Assembly (NCBI RefSeq): GCF_001434255.1
Contig: NZ_AZEY01000068.1
Span: forward strand, 36,592 to 100,591
Direction of reading: 5' to 3'
DNA from: Lentilactobacillus diolivorans DSM 14421
GTDB taxonomy: Bacteria; Bacillota; Bacilli; Lactobacillales; Lactobacillaceae
DNA length: 64,000 nt
Both the position numbers and the translations under genes were made by a program. Below are positions 1-57,305 of the stretch, piece after piece (position 1 is the stretch's first letter; each line of letters starts with the position of its first letter). The notes beneath the pieces were generated by a model. That model did no database searches. It was not told the origin of the DNA and saw nothing but the letters and a program-made list of their open reading frames with translations.

Positions 1-72
1 GGAGGATACAGGGATCGAACCTGTGACCTCCTGCTTGTAAGGCAGATGCTCTCCCAGCTGAGCTAATCCTCC
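1..72 (-). tRNA. tRNA-Val (anticodon TAC), 3' end cut by window edge
   Basis: On the minus strand a full cloverleaf can be drawn: a 7-bp acceptor stem (GGAGGAT with ATCCTCC), a D arm with AGCTGGGA, an anticodon arm with loop CTTACAA and a T arm with TTCGATC. The anticodon at the middle of the loop is TAC, which reads valine GTA/GTG codons. The discriminator base and any encoded CCA lie before base 1, so the gene is incomplete only at its last base(s). Confidence 0.96.
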
Positions 73-5848: not shown

Positions 5849-5868
5849 GCAGGTGTTTCTCAACATCT

Positions 5869-6040
5869 TGATAGCGCTCCGTAGTATCAAACTACGACAG
5901 TCCTTAATCTCTTAAATTAAGACCCAACAACCAACCAGAAAAAGTGGTTACTCATTTCGGCATTCATCCCTTTTTATTTCAGTCATCACTTCTTTTCAAG
6001 TTCCTGAAATATACTTTTAATAAATGCGCCTCTACTCGAA
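5869..6040 (-). promoter_or_regulatory. lysine riboswitch (L-box) upstream of lysP
   Basis: The minus strand contains the conserved aptamer pieces in order: GTAGAGGCGC opening P1/P2, the GGGATGAATGCCGAAATGAG junction, the GTTGGGTCTT and AAGGACTGTCGT segments of P4/P5, and the closing GGAGCGCTATC. These match the L-box consensus. With the downstream terminator this is a transcriptional OFF switch for lysine uptake. Confidence 0.93.
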
Positions 6041-6123
6041 TATATCGATAAATTAAATTATTTAAATTTCAAACAAGAGAATTGTAACTCAAATCCCCAT
6101 AATTAACAACCGACACGGACTAG

Positions 6124-9416: not shown

Positions 9417-9498
9417 ACTGCCACCTCCACAATACTATATTTCATATAATATAATTTCATTGATATCTTAGACGAAAAAGGAGAGAATGTCAAATGAA

Positions 9499-9735
9499 TA
9501 GAGTGTGGAACCAAGTGCTTATATGGCAGGGGTTTGCTTGGTTTCACACATTTCGGCTAGATGGCCAGTCCAATATTCCAGGTAGAAAATGTTGGATTAG
9601 AGATGCTTATATGGCCAGTATCTGCTTGATTTCACACGTTTCAGCTAGGCAGCCAGTCCAGTATTCCAAGTAGAAAATATTGGACGAGGGACGCCTACAA
9701 GGAGAGGAACTGTTTGGCTTCACACATCTCAAACA
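9499..9735 (+). repeat. degenerate tandem copies of the large palindromic element (copy G)
   Basis: About two and a half imperfect units with an 88-bp period start at 9518, 9606 and 9694. Each unit contains the element's right half: CTTATATGGC, then TGCTTG-TTTCACAC and an ATTTCGGCTAG-like tail. The first is preceded by the left arm AGAGTGTGGAACCAAG, which pairs with CTTGGTTTCACAC, but the inner hairpin is missing. It lies in the 488-bp gap between padR and the ThrE pair; nothing else is seen there. Confidence 0.7.
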
Positions 9736-20259: not shown

Positions 20260-20586
20260 ATGGCAGACAATAAATTTATCATCAGCACAACGGAACATAT
20301 TCCGGGTAAAGAATACGAGGTTCTCGGTGAAGTCTTCGGCCTGACGACTCAATCTAAAAACGTTGTTCGAAATATCGGTGCCGGCTTTAAAAATTTAGTT
20401 GGTGGCGAAATTAAAGATTACACAAAAATGCTCGATGAAGCGCGGGACATTTCTGTTCAACGCCTTCGGGAAAACGCTCAAAAAATGGGTGCGGATGCCG
20501 TCGTGATGATGCGATTTGATTCAGGCTCAATTGGAACCGACATGCAATCAGTAGCAGCATATGGAACGGCAGTTAAGTTCAAGTAA
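20260..20586 (+). CDS. YbjQ/UPF0145 family protein
   Basis: A 108-residue protein with the family's conserved core: [22 protein letters not shown] near the start and [27 protein letters not shown] in the second half. The family forms pentamers and has been called heavy-metal binding on structural grounds, but no firm function is known. Start chosen at ATG 20260, 8 nt after GGAGG; two earlier start codons overlap that site. A palindromic element begins right after its stop. Confidence 0.88.
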
Positions 20587-20595
20587 AACACATAA

Positions 20596-20697
20596 TTATA
20601 AGTAAACATCGGCTAATACCCCTGGCCTTTAGGGATATTAGCCGATGTTTACTTATATGGCCGGGGTTGTTTAATGTACCACGTTTTGGCTTGGTTG
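20596..20697 (+). repeat. large palindromic element, copy A (5' truncated)
   Basis: A stem of about 20 bp begins ATAAGTAAACATCGGC and is mirrored by GCCGATGTTTACTTAT (around a GGCCTTT loop). It is followed by the family's fixed ATGGCC, the outer right arm GGGGTTGTTTAATGTACCAC, and the tail GTTTTGGCTTGG. The outer left arm is missing, so the element starts only about 10 bp after the YbjQ-like gene's stop. It may act as its terminator. Confidence 0.75.
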
Positions 20698-21767: not shown

Positions 21768-21955
21768 ATTCCGACCATATCAGCCCGCCAACCAATATTC
21801 AAACTCGAATATTGGTACTGGTTTCGGCTACTAAGCCGAAACGTGGTGAAAGTAGCAGCTTCCGGCCATATAAGCCCGCCAACCAATATTCAAACTCGAA
21901 TATTGGTTGGCGGGCTTATATTCTGGAAGCTAAGCGCTACTTTCACCACTCTGGT
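21768..21955 (-). repeat. large palindromic element, copy B plus partial copy B'
   Basis: The full copy (about 21822-21955) reads on the minus strand: CAGAGTGGTGAAAGTAGC, bulge GCTT, AGCTTCC, AGA, ATATAAG, inner stem CCCGCCAACCAATATTC, loop, and the mirrored right half ...CTTATATGGCCGGAAGCTGC. Helices outside and inside are perfectly paired. A partial copy B' (21768-21835) shares the same CCAATATTC hairpin in the opposite orientation, and the two tails form a further inverted repeat (GTTTCGGC, GCCGAAAC). This lies between divergent uppP and the 711-aa surface gene. Confidence 0.8.
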
Positions 21956-22075
21956 CTGTAAACTTTCCGTAAATCCTCTGTAAAAGTTTTGCCAATGCCC
22001 GTTAAATCGTTCCTTTGTACGATATTATAAAACCATGCCGGCAGCAAATTTTACAGAATCTGGAGATGAATTTTC

Positions 22076-24376: not shown

Positions 24377-25888
24377 ATGAAAGGACATTTTAAATTACTA
24401 TTAACGGCTGGGTTAATCGTGGCAGCCTTATGTTTTACGGTCAGCCCCGGCAATGCTCAGGCTGATGTGATTGAGACGCCGGCTCCTGCAACTAATATCA
24501 AACAAATTAATGCCGGCAATGTCTTAACCGATTATACTCAAAAGAAATTGAATGCAGTTGATAACCAGTCCCCCATCGCCAACATGGATCGAAAATATAA
24601 TCAGACAACGATTGATCCCACCTCAACAAATCCAGGAGATACCTTTTCAACAATCAACGGCAGTACATCATCGAATAGTTTTAAAACCAAATGGTACTTA
24701 CCCGATGGTTTTAACGTTACCAATTATCAGCATGGTAATTTTCAAAGTGTGGCGGTTGATGATGCCGGCAATGTTTACTTTGTTGAATCCAACGGCAGCG
24801 ATACCAATCTAGGTGTCATTATTAAATTTAACATCGCCGAACTCCAACAACTCGGTGCTGATAAAGATGTCATGGCTCTCTGGAATGCATTTAACTACTT
24901 TAACCCCTATACTGATGAAGGAGTTGCCCACAATCAACAATATGAAAATGACTATCAGCAAATGAAAGGGCCATTTGACCAAATTAAATTACTGAACCAA
25001 AGCCTTGATCAAGAAAAGTCATCAATGAACACAGTACTTAATAACGAAAAAAACGCCCAAAAATGGGCCAAGCATTGGAAAAGACGAGCTCAAAAATCAG
25101 ATAAACCAGCAAAAGCCAAATTGGCTAAATGGCAGGCAGCTTACAAGACTGCTAGCCAAAAAGTAACCGGTTATCAAAAGCTAATTAAACAGACCAGCGC
25201 CAAAATTGCCGGTTATGAAAAACAAGTTTCAACCGTTAAACAACAAGATCCTCAACTCTTCAAATATGCGGATATCGCCCAGGCAGCCCAAATCAGTCCA
25301 CAAGTCGACATTGGTCACGGACAAACCTTAACCTTTAATCCTCAAAATAAACATCTTTACATGGTTGAGGATAATACGCTAACTGATTTGCGAAACCGTG
25401 ATGAAAATAACACGGTACTTGAACTGGATCCTGAAACGATGAATCCAATTCGTCAATATAACTTTAAAATGTTCCATGGCGATTCAGCCAATTTACAATT
25501 GCATACCCTCGCCTTTGATAAAGACGGTAATGCTTATTGGGGTCGAAAAAATGGCATGGGCTACATGTTCTTCTTTGGCCGCCTAGATGAACATTCCGTT
25601 CACTTCCAAGCATCCCCATCCTATGTCAAAACCCGCGGAAGTTCACCTAATCAGGGAACCAGTGCCAATCCTGCCAATGATCGACTATACTTTGTCTCTG
25701 ACGATATCTTAACTTCCATCCCAACTGGAGAAATTCGTGACGGCAGTTTTACGCCAAGCGATATTCATTACTCAGTTTTCAATTCAAAAAAGGAATGGGA
25801 AAGCTTATCGTTTGACCAAAATGGTCGCGGCTATCTGTTAGCGTTGTGGCCGGCACAGTTGATGACGTCAACGGGGGAATTAGATTAG
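24377..25888 (+). CDS. secreted protein with beta-propeller-like halves and coiled coil
   Basis: The signal peptide MKGHFKLLLTAGLIVAALCF...NAQA ends near residue 29. Two stretches resemble NHL/SMP-30 blades (SVAVDDAGNVYFVES near 130 and LHTLAFDKDGNAYWGRKN near 375), with FDQNGRGYLLALWP at the end. A lysine-rich coiled coil lies between them (about residues 195-290). No sorting signal is seen. The family is unknown to me but occurs in lactobacilli. It follows the 711-aa secreted gene at 165 bp, with its own upstream region. A palindromic element overlaps its stop codon. Confidence 0.75.
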   Translation: MKGHFKLLLTAGLIVAALCFTVSPGNAQADVIETPAPATNIKQINAGNVLTDYTQKKLNAVDNQSPIANMDRKYNQTTIDPTSTNPGDTFSTINGSTSSNSFKTKWYLPDGFNVTNYQHGNFQSVAVDDAGNVYFVESNGSDTNLGVIIKFNIAELQQLGADKDVMALWNAFNYFNPYTDEGVAHNQQYENDYQQMKGPFDQIKLLNQSLDQEKSSMNTVLNNEKNAQKWAKHWKRRAQKSDKPAKAKLAKWQAAYKTASQKVTGYQKLIKQTSAKIAGYEKQVSTVKQQDPQLFKYADIAQAAQISPQVDIGHGQTLTFNPQNKHLYMVEDNTLTDLRNRDENNTVLELDPETMNPIRQYNFKMFHGDSANLQLHTLAFDKDGNAYWGRKNGMGYMFFFGRLDEHSVHFQASPSYVKTRGSSPNQGTSANPANDRLYFVSDDILTSIPTGEIRDGSFTPSDIHYSVFNSKKEWESLSFDQNGRGYLLALWPAQLMTSTGELD

Positions 25889-26014
25889 AGTGTGAAAACG
25901 AGCGCTTAGATCTCAGAATATAACACCTCTAACCCCAATATTCCGGGTTTTGGGATATGGGGTTAGAGGTGTTATATGGCCGAGATCTGCTCGTTTTCAC
26001 ACGTTTTGGCTTAG
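25887..26014 (+). repeat. large palindromic element, copy C
   Basis: Complete copy. The left arm AGAGTGTGAAAACGAGC is followed by bulge GCTT, AGATCTC, AGA, ATATAA and the inner stem CACCTCTAACCCC. The right half is TTATAT, GGCC, GAGATCT, GCTCGTTTTCACAC and tail GTTTTGGCTTAG. Outer and middle helices differ from copies B and F but pair fully. The first bases overlap the TAG stop of the secreted-protein gene. Confidence 0.85.
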
Positions 26015-31037: not shown

Positions 31038-31173
31038 CTTAGTAAAAACGTGGGCCAGCAAGCAGACCCCAGAATATAAGCCCCCTAACTTAACATTCCA
31101 AAATCGGGAATATCAAGTTAGGGGGCTTATATTCTGGGGTCTAACCGCTTGCTGGCCCACTCTGTTTACTAAG
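31038..31173 (-). repeat. large palindromic element, copy D (fully paired)
   Basis: The copy folds along nearly its whole 136 bp, from CTTAGTAAA (31038) to TTTACTAAG (31173). On the minus strand the left half is CAGAGTGGGCCAGCAAGC, GGTT, AGACCCC, AGA, ATATAAG; the right half has TCT in place of GGCC, so the usual internal loop is closed. The inner stem is CCCCCTAACTT with AAGTTAGGGGG on the plus strand. It lies about 135 bp downstream of metY in the same orientation. Confidence 0.85.
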
Positions 31174-42778: not shown

Positions 42779-44686
42779 ATGCGGGGAAAACAAGTCATCA
42801 TTGCCGCGTTAAGCGGACTACTAGTTATCGGCGCCGGCAGTACCGTTAACGCCAAGTCAAAGGTAAAAAAGCCTGATAACCGAACAACTATTGCCAATGT
42901 TGTTTTTAAGCCAACTAATGAAACGGATCTCACAAACTATGTTTATGATACCGTTAATCCATCGGCCGCAGATTATCATAAATACCTAACGCCGAACGAA
43001 TTTGCATCAAAATTTGGTCAGTCTGACGGTTACATCAATTCGTTTAAACAATATCTATCAAAATATCATCTTAAGACAACCACATTTTCTGGCAATTTGG
43101 CTATTCAAGTTAAAGGCCACCGCGTCAATATGAACAAAGCGTTTAAAGCCAAATATATTAAAGAAAAGGGTAAAGAATCCCGAACACAATATCAGTTACC
43201 CGGTAAGCTATCCGATCAAGTCGTTGCGGTAATCGGTGTTTACGCTGAAAAGCCGACAACTAAAAAGGTAACTGGCAAGAAAAAGGTAGTAAAAAAATCA
43301 ACTACTAAGAAACACCTAGTGGCCAGCGCCGACCTGCCAACCAGCGGTGAAAAGCCTGATACTGCTTTGTCTGATAATCAATTTTCCAACAAATATGGTG
43401 CCGGTAAGTTTGCCAAACAGTACCAATTGAATCGCCTTTACAATAAAGGATTAACTGGTCAAGGTCAACGAATCGGTATTGTTTCTTACGGTGACTTTAA
43501 AACTGGGGATCTGCAAAAATATTGGCAACAAGCCGGGGTTAACGACTCTTTAGACCGAATCCATAAGATTTATACCGTCGACAATGCAAAGACATCAACG
43601 AACAATATGAATAAAATGCTAACCGAATACCAAATGGAGGCTTCACTGGATATTCAATCCGCAAGTGCGGTGGCTCCAAATGCCAATATTGATTTCTACA
43701 TCGGCAATTCCGCAAACAACGCGACGACATCGCCAGCTATTTACTTTTCAACCTTTGCCAAAGCAATTTCTGATAATCTGGATTCGCAAATTTCAACCAG
43801 TTTTGCCCCCACCGTTGAATTAACTCGTCAATGGTCCGATCATAGTTCATCACTCAAACAATATAACCATGCCTTTAACCTGCTTCTCCAACAAGCGGCC
43901 ACTCAAGGGATTACCGTCTTCAAAGCCAGTGGTGATTACGGGCCGCGTGATACCCCTCAAAAACGGGAAAACCATTCCGTAACCTCTTCGCCATATCAAG
44001 TCATTGTTGGCGGTACCACCCTTCCTTATCAAAAAATCATTAACAATAAACTTGTCACGGTAAACAAAGAACGGGCCTGGGGCGACACCTACACGGCTTC
44101 TGCTGCCGAAATCAAACAGGGTGTCTTTCCAGGAAGTGGCGGTGGTTTTTCCGCTCTTAACCCCACACCTCGCTATCAACAAGGTTTCTCCGGTGTCAAC
44201 ACGTTTAGAGCAGTTGACGTTCTGAAATACGCAAAGGGTAAGATGGTGATTAACAAACATCCCCGAATTATTTTTGGCACTGGGAATTCCAGAAATCTAC
44301 CAGACATCTCCGGAAATGCCGATATTCGAACCGGCTATGCCACTTATTTTTCAGGTAATCGAATCGCGATCAATATGAAGAAGAAAAAGATCACCCGAAT
44401 CCCTTCTAAAATTTGGATGATTGGCGGCGGCACAAGTTATACTTCGCCACAAATGGCAGCGGCAAATGCAGTCATGAATAGCGGTCGGCAAACTCGAATT
44501 GGGTTCTGGAATCCGCAGATTTATAAATTTGCTGCTCAACCGAATACCCCATTTAACGTCCTCGATGATGCTGATAATAACAACAACTTATACTACACCG
44601 GCCAACCTGGCAAGCTTTATAATCAAGCAACCGGATTAGGCACAATTAATTTCGATAAATTATATACTAAGTTTAATAACGAATAA
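42779..44686 (+). CDS. secreted S53 family (sedolisin/kumamolisin) peptidase
   Basis: A signal peptide (MRGKQVIIAALSGLLVIGAG...NAKS) is followed by an activation domain to about residue 165 and a lysine-rich linker. The catalytic domain follows: Glu287 and Asp291 in MEASLDI, the oxyanion Asp386 in KASGDYG, and the nucleophile Ser553 in GGGTSYTSPQMAA. All four S53 residues are present. Near the C-terminus DDADNNNN may be the calcium site. These acid-active endopeptidases work outside the cell. Start at ATG 42779 after GATGGGG. A palindromic element follows the stop. Confidence 0.92.
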   Translation: MRGKQVIIAALSGLLVIGAGSTVNAKSKVKKPDNRTTIANVVFKPTNETDLTNYVYDTVNPSAADYHKYLTPNEFASKFGQSDGYINSFKQYLSKYHLKTTTFSGNLAIQVKGHRVNMNKAFKAKYIKEKGKESRTQYQLPGKLSDQVVAVIGVYAEKPTTKKVTGKKKVVKKSTTKKHLVASADLPTSGEKPDTALSDNQFSNKYGAGKFAKQYQLNRLYNKGLTGQGQRIGIVSYGDFKTGDLQKYWQQAGVNDSLDRIHKIYTVDNAKTSTNNMNKMLTEYQMEASLDIQSASAVAPNANIDFYIGNSANNATTSPAIYFSTFAKAISDNLDSQISTSFAPTVELTRQWSDHSSSLKQYNHAFNLLLQQAATQGITVFKASGDYGPRDTPQKRENHSVTSSPYQVIVGGTTLPYQKIINNKLVTVNKERAWGDTYTASAAEIKQGVFPGSGGGFSALNPTPRYQQGFSGVNTFRAVDVLKYAKGKMVINKHPRIIFGTGNSRNLPDISGNADIRTGYATYFSGNRIAINMKKKKITRIPSKIWMIGGGTSYTSPQMAAANAVMNSGRQTRIGFWNPQIYKFAAQPNTPFNVLDDADNNNNLYYTGQPGKLYNQATGLGTINFDKLYTKFNNE

Positions 44687-44697
44687 TCGATAAAAAA

Positions 44698-44784
44698 ACG
44701 ATTAGCTTCCAGAATATAAGCGGTTTTAGCCACATTCCTGAACTTGGGAATATTGGCTAAAGCTGCTTTTTTCAGCCGCTTTTG
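44698..44784 (+). repeat. large palindromic element, copy E (3' decayed)
   Basis: The left half ACGATTAGCTTCC, AGA, ATATAAG and inner stem GCGGTTTTAGCC are followed by loop, GGAATATTGGCTAAAGCTGC and TTTTTT. The right outer arm is lost. It starts about 10 bp after the S53 peptidase stop and, with its T-run, would work as that gene's terminator. The rest of the 340-bp gap to 45029 holds nothing I recognise. Confidence 0.7.
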
Positions 44785-45029
44785 ACGAAAAAATCAGGAC
44801 TAGGTTTAACCGACTGATTAAAACTTGTTTTAGGCGGCCTCGTATCAGAAATCATATTTTTATCAATCCTGCAAGCACCTTAAACAATTTTTTATCCTTA
44901 TAAACAAAGCTTTAACACTATTTCAGACTGACATCTTCCGTCAACAGATCACAAATTTTCTGTAACCTCATTGAAAAAATGATCGGGTATCATGGCCTTG
45001 AATCAAATAAAAATTAATGAGGTGTTCTT

Positions 45030-56236: not shown

Positions 56237-56958
56237 TGATTTTACTCACATTAGCAATTAGCGTTGTCCTCTCGTTTATCTTTTTCGTCTATATCGAAAA
56301 CAAGCCGTTGAGTAACATCTTAACGGTCATTGCCATTCTAGGTGCCGTTGCTTCGACATTCTTCATCGTTAGAAATGACCGGGATCACTTCGGTATGGAA
56401 AAGGCTACGACAACAACAAGCCAACAACTTTATTCAGTTGGTAAGTCAAAGCAAATGCAGATGTTATTGTATCAACCAATTGGAACAGCTAATAAGAAAC
56501 AGGTTTATATTTATCAAACGTCCGCAAATGCTAAGAAAAAGTCGCATACCCAAGCTAAGGATACGACTCATAACAAAGTTATCCGCACAAATGCAACGAC
56601 CCATATGGTCACGAAAACGACCCGTTGGCAATACAAAAACAATGCCTCTAAGCTATGGTTTGGCATCGCTGATGAAGGTCACAAATTAGTTAAGCGTCAA
56701 AACACACTTTACGTTAATAAAAACTGGTTAGTCCTTTCAACTACTCAAGCCAAGGCTTTGCAAAAGAAGATGGCAAATAAAACTTACCAAGCGCAATTAA
56801 AGGCTCAAGGTAAAGCATTTGTCACTAAACAAGTCATGGCTGCGATGAAGAAAAACCCAACCATGTCAAAAGCTGCTCAAGCTAAGATTGCTAAACAAGC
56901 TCAAGCTGAATTTCAGGCTCAGGCTTTGAAAAAAGTAATTGATGATATTCAAAAATAA
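56236..56958 (+). CDS. DUF4811 family membrane protein
   Basis: A 240-residue protein with two N-terminal helices (about 2-22 and 27-47), an extracellular beta-rich domain with KQMQMLLYQPIGTANKKQVYIYQT, and a lysine/alanine/glutamine-rich helical tail. The DUF4811 family is regularly encoded right after a DHA2 transporter in lactobacilli, so it may be an accessory subunit. Translation is coupled via TAATG. A palindromic element starts immediately after its stop. Confidence 0.87.
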   Translation: MILLTLAISVVLSFIFFVYIENKPLSNILTVIAILGAVASTFFIVRNDRDHFGMEKATTTTSQQLYSVGKSKQMQMLLYQPIGTANKKQVYIYQTSANAKKKSHTQAKDTTHNKVIRTNATTHMVTKTTRWQYKNNASKLWFGIADEGHKLVKRQNTLYVNKNWLVLSTTQAKALQKKMANKTYQAQLKAQGKAFVTKQVMAAMKKNPTMSKAAQAKIAKQAQAEFQAQALKKVIDDIQK

Positions 56959-57090
56959 ACAGAGTGGACCAGCAAGCGTTTAGACTCCAGAATATAAGTC
57001 CCCTAACCTTAATGTTCCTGGTTTTGGAATATTAAGGTTAGGGGACTTATATGGCCGGAGTCTGCTTGCTGGGCCACGTTTCAACTATAG
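56959..57090 (+). repeat. large palindromic element, copy F (type example)
   Basis: Complete copy. Left: CAGAGTGGACCAGCAAGC, bulge GTTT, AGACTCC, AGA, ATATAAG, inner TCCCCTAACCTTAA. Right: TTAAGGTTAGGGGA, CTTATAT, GGCC, GGAGTCT, GCTTGCTGGGCCAC, tail GTTTCAACTATAG. It begins at the first base after the DUF4811 stop codon. Confidence 0.87.
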
Positions 57091-57111
57091 AAAAAGTTCA
57101 ACAAGGTATCC

Positions 57112-57225
57112 CGGGCTTTAATATTGAATAACTCGGTTACACGACCGGAAGTTGCTTTTTGCCTTCGCTCTGTAGTAAATCGCGTTTACAAAAAAAGACT
57201 GGGCAAAATGATTATTATCCCAGCC
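57112..57225 (-). repeat. second dispersed element, copy 4
   Basis: On the minus strand: head GAGGCTGGGATAAT...ATTTTGCCCAGTC with TTTTTTT, then GTAAACGCGATTTACTACAGAGCGAAGGC and AAAGCAACTTCCGGTCGTGTAACCGAG. It faces palindromic copy F at a distance of 22 bp, as copy 1 faces copy D. Confidence 0.7.
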
Positions 57226-57228
57226 TCT

Positions 57229-57274
57229 AAGGATTCAGTCAGGATCGGTATCAGATCTGACTGAATCCTTTTTT
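57229..57274. terminator. terminator between DUF4811 and hisC
   Basis: AAGGATTCAGTCAG and CTGACTGAATCCTTTTTT make a 14-bp stem with a T-run on the plus strand and an A-rich left flank for the minus strand (hisC). Confidence 0.75.
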
Positions 57275-57305
57275 GTTATCTTCAAGAACAACTTAATTAT
57301 TATAC

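Follow-up and report, generated by a model that had tools for sequence, protein, structure and literature searches.

How can the two arms of a palindrome change from copy to copy and still match each other, and why should such a palindrome begin at the stop codon of a gene? Both questions are raised by copy F of Lentilactobacillus diolivorans DSM 14421, an imperfect palindrome of ~124 nt. It lies in a window of 64,000 nucleotides (contig NZ_AZEY01000068.1, positions 36,592 to 100,591), the whole stretch of DNA analysed here, in which a first-pass annotation had listed seven related copies, A to G. These elements are probably non-autonomous interspersed palindromic repeats of Lactobacillales, of the MITE, BOX, or EFAR type, acting as a 3'-UTR hairpin, the arms of which are matched by copying together with selection. 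Because this one folded design appears to close some sixty or more genes in a single genome, the element could set mRNA 3' ends or stability genome-wide in lactic acid bacteria.

Copies of the Element in the Window

Copy F and the sequence that follows it display these features:

56956..57081, + strand: copy F, full element (covariance model R1, 133.6 bits; fold; hairpin AGAGTG ... CACGTTT)
56956-56958, + strand: TAA stop codon of the gene upstream of copy F
56961-56966, + strand: AGAGTG motif
56961..56977, + strand: AGA and left outer arm, GTGGACCAGCAAGC (partner strand 57064-57077)
56978..56981, + strand: left-only bulge GTTT (family consensus G-N-T-T)
56982..56988, + strand: left arm of the middle helix, AGACTCC (partner GGAGTCT, 57057-57063)
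56989..56997, + strand: AGA of the internal loop, then ATATAA
56998..57046, + strand: variable inner hairpin with apical loop (from the fold)
57047..57056, + strand: TTATAT, then GGCC of the internal loop, facing AGA
57057..57081, + strand: right middle and outer arms, CACGTTT end
57110..57180, + strand: further right-half unit of the R2 subfamily, second in order and degenerate, CGGTTACACGACCGGAAGTTGC (approximate limits; by eye against locus L046)
57196..57229, + strand: tail hairpin, GACTGGGCAAAA..ATCCCAGCCTC (by eye; the pattern search missed copy F)
57230..57275, + strand: second terminator-like hairpin, GGATTCAGTC..GACTGAATCCTTTTTT (read from the sequence)

The layout that the annotation had given for copy F is found in every part: stop codon, outer helix, GTTT bulge, 7-bp middle helix (AGACTCC/GGAGTCT), AGA opposite GGCC, ATATAA with TTATAT, inner hairpin, and CACGTTT. 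The hairpin at 57230..57275 is read as the gene's own terminator, located outside the element. The remaining copies are as follows:

25882..26006, + strand: copy C, full (125.3 bits)
21839..21957, - strand: copy B, full, with an extra right-half unit, between divergent ORFs (114.9 bits)
31046..31168, - strand: copy D, full, GGCC loop converted to TCT (137 bits)
20569..20686, + strand: copy A, left outer arm decayed (29.3 bits)
44679..44792, + strand: copy E, without its right half, left half and inner hairpin present (22.6 bits)
9495..9730, + strand: copy G, an array of right-half units behind a truncated left half (30.5 bits)

All seven had been credited with one plan on one strand. By a covariance model built on copies of the same genome, the window harbors four full copies (D, F, C, and B); in copy A the left outer arm has decayed, E is without its right half, and the left half of G is truncated. 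Five of the seven share a strand, but B and D read on the minus strand, and the AGA of copy D faces TCT instead of GGCC. A position near a stop codon, claimed for four copies, was confirmed for A, C, E, and F; at copy C, the TAG stop of the ORF at 24377-25888 is formed by a T and the AG of the element itself. The right-half units of copy G are spaced by 88 bp, two of them 88 nt long and a third common over 20 nt.

Family Size and Distribution

A BLAST search with copy F hits 97 sites in the draft genome (3.26 Mb), a number that covers both strands and includes partial units. Covariance model R1, built from 22 copies of this genome, gives 131 matches there, some sites being counted on both strands; this is a lower limit because just 150 of 1695 first-look candidates were scored. 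The fetched loci yielded 172 distinct sequences, 115 of them from the own genome (one a cut duplicate), which thus holds ~115 copies, more than half of them at the stop codon of a gene. Thirty-four of these, classed by CCAGCAAGC or CTTGCTGG, form a subfamily that looks like a recent burst of copying; the others are referred to below as the diverse class. A tail hairpin like that of copy F is found by pattern behind 20 of the 34 burst copies. A second subfamily (AGAGCGGGACAAAAGGC..) is represented at L046:308-430 (- strand) and L285:5072-5193 (+ strand), and its right half and tail hairpin stand behind many burst copies.

The annotation had proposed a search of related lactobacillal genomes with a covariance model. 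Matches were obtained in 16 of 24 Lentilactobacillus genomes (none in the other eight), in 90 of 301 genomes and 19 of 40 sampled genera at the family level, in 47 of 395 genomes and 20 of 80 genera at the order level, and in 1 of 398 genomes of a phylum sample, the own genome alone; these counts are lower limits, since in the large scans stricter filters applied and only a small number of candidates from each genome were scored. Fifteen matches from outside the family were inspected: GNTTAG is present in all 15 and the GTTT end in 12, their inner loops differ, and they score 37-78 bits. A common origin with the element is likely rather than proven, because these scores are low and the model itself favours the GNTTAG and GTTT motifs. 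Pattern hits in Pelagibacteraceae, Hellea, Chitinophagia, Lachnospiraceae, Ignavibacteriae, and one viral contig gave no covariance-model match at E 0.1 and were rejected, and BLAST gave no match to the element in phages.

Three elements stand head to tail with a 125-bp spacing in a genome from a different family of the order (L293:502-875). Segments of ~3-6 kb that are 96-99% identical across species or genera pass through or stop within elements (L285/L253, L282/L259, L283/L284, L281/L242), which suggests recent horizontal transfer.

A Covarying Hairpin with Fixed Unpaired Loops

Covariation was measured on 95 non-redundant sequences, burst copies excluded, that had been aligned without structure. 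Over 45 pairs, 95.1% of cells are paired, compared with a shuffled mean of 67.9%; double changes occur in 44 of the 45 pairs, with 1084 double-change cells against 274 after shuffling. The covariation score is 0.706, against 0.181 for shuffled alignments and at most 0.145 for slid controls, a level reached in none of 500 shuffles and in no slid control. These figures are not to be read as probabilities, because the tested structure was the consensus of the same alignment and the shuffling did not preserve relatedness. Together with the 131 model matches in the genome, they place the observation well past what chance would give.

The loops stay unpaired in most copies. Among the 115 own copies, AGAGTG is exact in 106, GNTT is kept in 110, and CACGTTT in 98, and the strict motif of AGA with GGCC is found in 92; judged by motif, loops have been "corrected" into a perfect palindrome in six. 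A general second conserved hairpin behind CACGTTT was also considered and rejected, the small stem being perfect in 9 of 135 sequences.

Position at Stop Codons

Among the 85 own copies with an upstream ORF on the same strand, the stop codon ends between 23 nt inside the element and 5 nt before it (-23..+5 relative to AGAGTG) in 64. Of all 115 own copies, 22 have their nearest upstream ORF on the opposite strand, some of these ORFs being possibly spurious, and for eight none was found. When restricted to ORFs with codon-usage support, which is lacking for 37 of 81 diverse-class and 17 of 34 burst copies, the stop lies at the element in 38 of 44 diverse-class and 8 of 17 burst-class copies, compared with 2.4% of 500 random positions (limits -42..+5); the remaining nine supported burst copies are located 28-76 bp beyond the stop. 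The position recurs in relatives, as checked on 50 elements of named contigs: it is found in 14 of 21 elements with an ORF in other Lentilactobacillus (27 inspected) and in 7 of 13 in Secundilactobacillus (21 inspected), compared with 7 of 94 random positions with such an ORF.

Orthologues of the genes at copies F and C display the stop codon with and without the element. Fourteen close orthologues of the F gene (63-74% identical) were compared, 13 of which end at the equivalent codon with no element at the stop, two of these sequences extending just ~50 bases past it. In one orthologue (L203), an R2-like remnant is seen by eye further downstream, in the opposite direction. The fourteenth (genome G004, L199) has, by eye, a left half 3 bases past its stop, to which the covariance model gives no match. 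By eye, stem-loops are visible some 10-90 nt past the stop of the element-free orthologues, and a terminator-like stem-loop is still present downstream of the element at F. In all 21 relatives read, ..PLN* is the end of the C gene and its paralogue, one further relative (L174) having given a wrong ORF. Four of the 21 carry an element at this stop (L177, L185, L187, and L188), and in L177 the stop is rebuilt from T and AGAGTG, as here. The stop-rebuilding junctions observed are T + AGAGTG, T + AGAGCG, and TA + AGAGTG. Left junctions are readable; no pair with a clean right junction, no target duplication, and no mobiliser were found. Anchoring at stop codons would require a new mode of target choice or a sharp selective filter.

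Strand Preference of the Fold

Isolated mispairs, defined as those flanked by two standard pairs on each side, comprise 153 G.T and 21 A.C (94:16 in own copies, 59:5 in relatives), the strand of each copy being that assigned by the covariance model, itself trained on such pairs. The strand on which G.T is favoured bears AGAGTG...CACGTTT and is the sense strand of the upstream ORF in 85 of the 107 copies having one nearby. The fold of this strand, which reads mostly with the upstream gene, seems to be under selection, because the isolated mispairs are G.T and not A.C.

The burst subfamily points the same way: relative to the most frequent Watson-Crick pair, its changes amount to 38 A>G, 27 C>T, 8 G>A, and 1 T>C; counted by columns, they are 10, 11, 8, and 1, the bias of C>T over G>A being weaker than that of A>G over T>C. 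A mutation bias on the AGAGTG...CACGTTT strand is not likely to explain the G.T excess. In an unrestricted count, compensated changes included, A>G plus C>T stand against T>C plus G>A at 22:55 in first units and 7:41 in later units, a difference that is not significant (Fisher P 0.08); this count speaks to mutation bias only, because compensated and subfamily differences are mixed in it. Deamination of C to T is thus unlikely to lie behind the excess: A>G is favoured too, and the unrestricted count has no bias towards A>G and C>T.

Right-Half Arrays and Apparent Rewriting of the Left Half

Up to four further right-half units of ~90 bp follow the first hairpin, the spacing being 85-100 bp in most cases. 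Sequence was sufficient at 111 own loci; 51 of them have one unit and 60 have two to five, at a score threshold that misses diverged units. In 56 of the 60 multi-unit loci, the first unit is the best partner of the left half. Arrays vary between otherwise similar loci: behind fabI, three units are found here, compared with one in a contig of Secundilactobacillus malefermentans that matches brewery plasmids, with flanks ~99% identical.

Locus L119 and a contig of Lactobacillus kefiranofaciens, 96-98% identical over ~5.5 kb, display one clear switch of the left half. The left half here pairs at 49 of 50 positions with its own first unit. That of kefiranofaciens pairs 46/49 (score 71) with the second unit found here, compared with 41/45 (score 40) for the first unit. 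In the kefiranofaciens array, a unit of that second kind stands first and again third. A different unit of the array thus seems to have served as the template for the left half. This is the one strong case. Between L. rapi and L. dabitei (flanks about 90% identical), the whole inner-hairpin block differs and is paired in both, a change that fits rewriting, its donor not having been found.

Because a left half has switched between two species with flanks 96-98% identical, much of the apparent compensation is block copying, and coordinated change of the arms seems in good part to result from copying, probably by template switching on the hairpin. When both arms change in step, the usual interpretation is natural selection alone. 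Rewriting templated by an array is a caution for RNA discovery, since copying can generate covariation. The G.T:A.C ratio of isolated mispairs on each strand and the fate of the loops help separate copying from selection, and both can be reused elsewhere.

Proposed Function and Alternative Explanations

Each element consists of a left half and one to five right-half units, the left half and the first unit forming the ~124-nt hairpin with its fixed unpaired motifs AGAGTG, GNTT, AGA/GGCC, and GTTT. In the proposed mechanism, since the element is found mostly at the stop and in the sense of the gene, the mRNA would carry a stable hairpin right after its coding sequence, and the molecule that folds would be the mRNA 3'-UTR. 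The fixed loops may be read by an RNA-binding or RNA-cutting protein, e.g., RNase III, or the hairpin may block 3'-5' decay. Its arms would stay matched largely by template switching, the left half being recopied from a right-half unit, whereas selection would keep the loops unpaired and purge A.C mispairs. The element would spread by means of an enzyme supplied in trans.

Alternatively, the element may be a parasite acting at the DNA level, with no RNA role: a transposase or recombinase would act on the hairpin as single-stranded DNA and recognise the unpaired bases of one strand, in the manner of IS200/IS605, RAYT, or attC systems, and the position at stop codons would reflect tolerated or targeted insertion. 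This is possible, if on the unlikely side. It accommodates a fold specific to one strand, in which extra-helical bases are fixed and the helix sequence is free, interspersed copies with a recent-looking burst of 34, left halves found by BLAST on two plasmids, and the full copy that a brewery plasmid carries behind fabI; a hairpin of the same single DNA strand would likewise favour G.T over A.C. However, transposition alone would not require the first hairpin to be kept where later units have decayed, as is observed. Y1 transposase genes are present in just 6 of 16 element-bearing genomes of the genus (and in 1 of 8 element-free ones), which makes Y1 transposases or RAYTs unlikely as the mobiliser, and the fetched surroundings of three own Y1 genes gave no covariance-model match. 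Own contig C22 has an IS605-type pair (L011:1482-3071), in which a TnpB-like gene, named by eye, comes after the gene of a Y1 transposase, likewise with no match in the fetched surroundings.

A further reading takes the stop-codon position as the target itself. The element would be mobile and RNA-structured and would integrate at stop codons, its targeting being linked to translation or to the mRNA; a store of right halves within it would serve to rewrite its left half, yielding a hairpin that evolves while always paired, with fixed loops read by a protein. This is considered unlikely.

That covariation is purely mutational, quasi-palindrome correction and gene conversion matching the arms of an unselected fold, is improbable. 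Both arms do change blockwise at once, the left half switches units, loops are sometimes corrected, and the unrestricted change count has no excess in first units. Such a process, however, predicts erased loops and equal numbers of G.T and A.C, as opposed to the GNTT retained in 110 of 115 copies and the isolated mispairs of 153:21; unpaired loops and G.T bias need selection. The annotation had taken compensated change with fixed unpaired bases as the mark of selection and not of recent copying. These last two observations uphold the first half of that statement; the second half is not supported, as whole blocks have changed on both arms at once in two locus pairs with close flanks, and in one of these the left half now matches another array unit.

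An elaborate intrinsic transcription terminator would account for a hairpin directly after the stop codon and for the terminator-like tail hairpin that the pattern search detects behind 20 of the 34 burst copies. This is very improbable: at least five T in the 8 nt after the hairpin are found in just 9 of 112 copies, which bears out the earlier view that this is not a plain terminator, downstream terminator-like sites are equally common on the opposite strand (61 vs. 59 of 112), and at F a second terminator-like hairpin comes after the element. Descent of the copies, through decay, from a single insertion sequence bounded by terminal inverted repeats is scarcely credible. It would fit copies that are palindromic, interspersed, and often degenerate, but a short apical loop joins the halves of full copies, helix sequences vary between loci whereas loops do not, and the ISL3-family insertion sequences beside split halves read as later insertions into the hairpin.

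The left halves on plasmids were also considered as ends of an autonomous element. This was rejected: they are cut by other sequence, with an ISL3-family transposase at the break in brewery plasmids. In three plasmid records (L278, L279, and L280), ISL3-family transposase genes adjoin the element behind fabI; two of these records, L279 and L280, have the hairpin split close to its middle, and insertions may thus favour the palindrome as a hot spot.

Comparison with Known Repeats and RNA Families

The layout of the repeat had been said to match no named family known to the annotation, and a comparison with Rfam had been suggested. In Rfam 15, no family reaches its gathering score over the window elements or 20 further loci. 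A permissive scan of copy F has as its best hit a miRNA-family hairpin (35.5 bits vs. a gathering score of 89), the rest being weaker, and is read as chance. A literature search gave no title or abstract opening that describes this repeat family in lactobacilli. The absence of a named family is nevertheless not safe to assert, as enterococcal EFAR (Efa-1) may be a relative. Going by descriptions, EFAR may be the closest candidate relative and BOX the closest in modularity.

EFAR elements are assembled from many sequence types and are said to insert into stem-loops, retaining part of the target stem, whereas the present element starts at stop codons. Weak relatives of the latter occur in other families of the order. 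EFAR and Efa-1 are presumably one family. EFAR is listed among enterococcal MITEs (PMC3733652), and Efa-1 of Enterococcus faecalis is described as 163 bp long, with 65 copies, 18 of them complete, and a pair of adjacent stem-loops (PMC2267715). As far as these descriptions go, the likeness lies in palindromic, intergenic sequences of similar size; as to the two adjacent stem-loops, the first hairpin is strong here, and the second small stem is the one rarely perfect (9/135). The element also shares terminal inverted repeats and a strong fold with MITEs in general.

BOX elements of Streptococcus pneumoniae are described as small, modular, parasitic repeats with a variable number of modules and a strong predicted RNA fold, which can be co-transcribed (PMC3049150). 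Small size, modularity, a module repeated in variable number, and a strong fold are common to both, within the scope of that description. In BOX, however, boxB is repeated between the outer modules, whereas here the right half is repeated downstream of the hairpin, and stop-codon anchoring does not figure in the description of BOX drawn on here. REPs are 20-40 bp long and GTAG- or CGTC-tagged (PMC3733652). REPs or BIMEs with RAYTs are likewise extragenic imperfect palindromes of high copy number; going by that account of REPs, the present element differs in its ~124 bp and its AGAGTG start, and Y1 genes do not track it.

Integron attC sites are recognised as a folded single strand with conserved extra-helical bases and free helix sequence, just after a stop codon, and carry the core boxes RYYYAAC/GTTRRRY. 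The element resembles them in the folded single strand, the extra-helical bases, the free helices, and the position after the stop codon; it differs in that its consensus, by eye, lacks these boxes and in that its copies are dispersed and not in a cassette array.

Elsewhere in the window, a tRNA match at 1-72 (- strand) is cut by the window start, ARAGORN reporting no tRNA in the window, and a lysine riboswitch is located at 5864-6042 (- strand), with 122.5 bits against a gathering score of 30.
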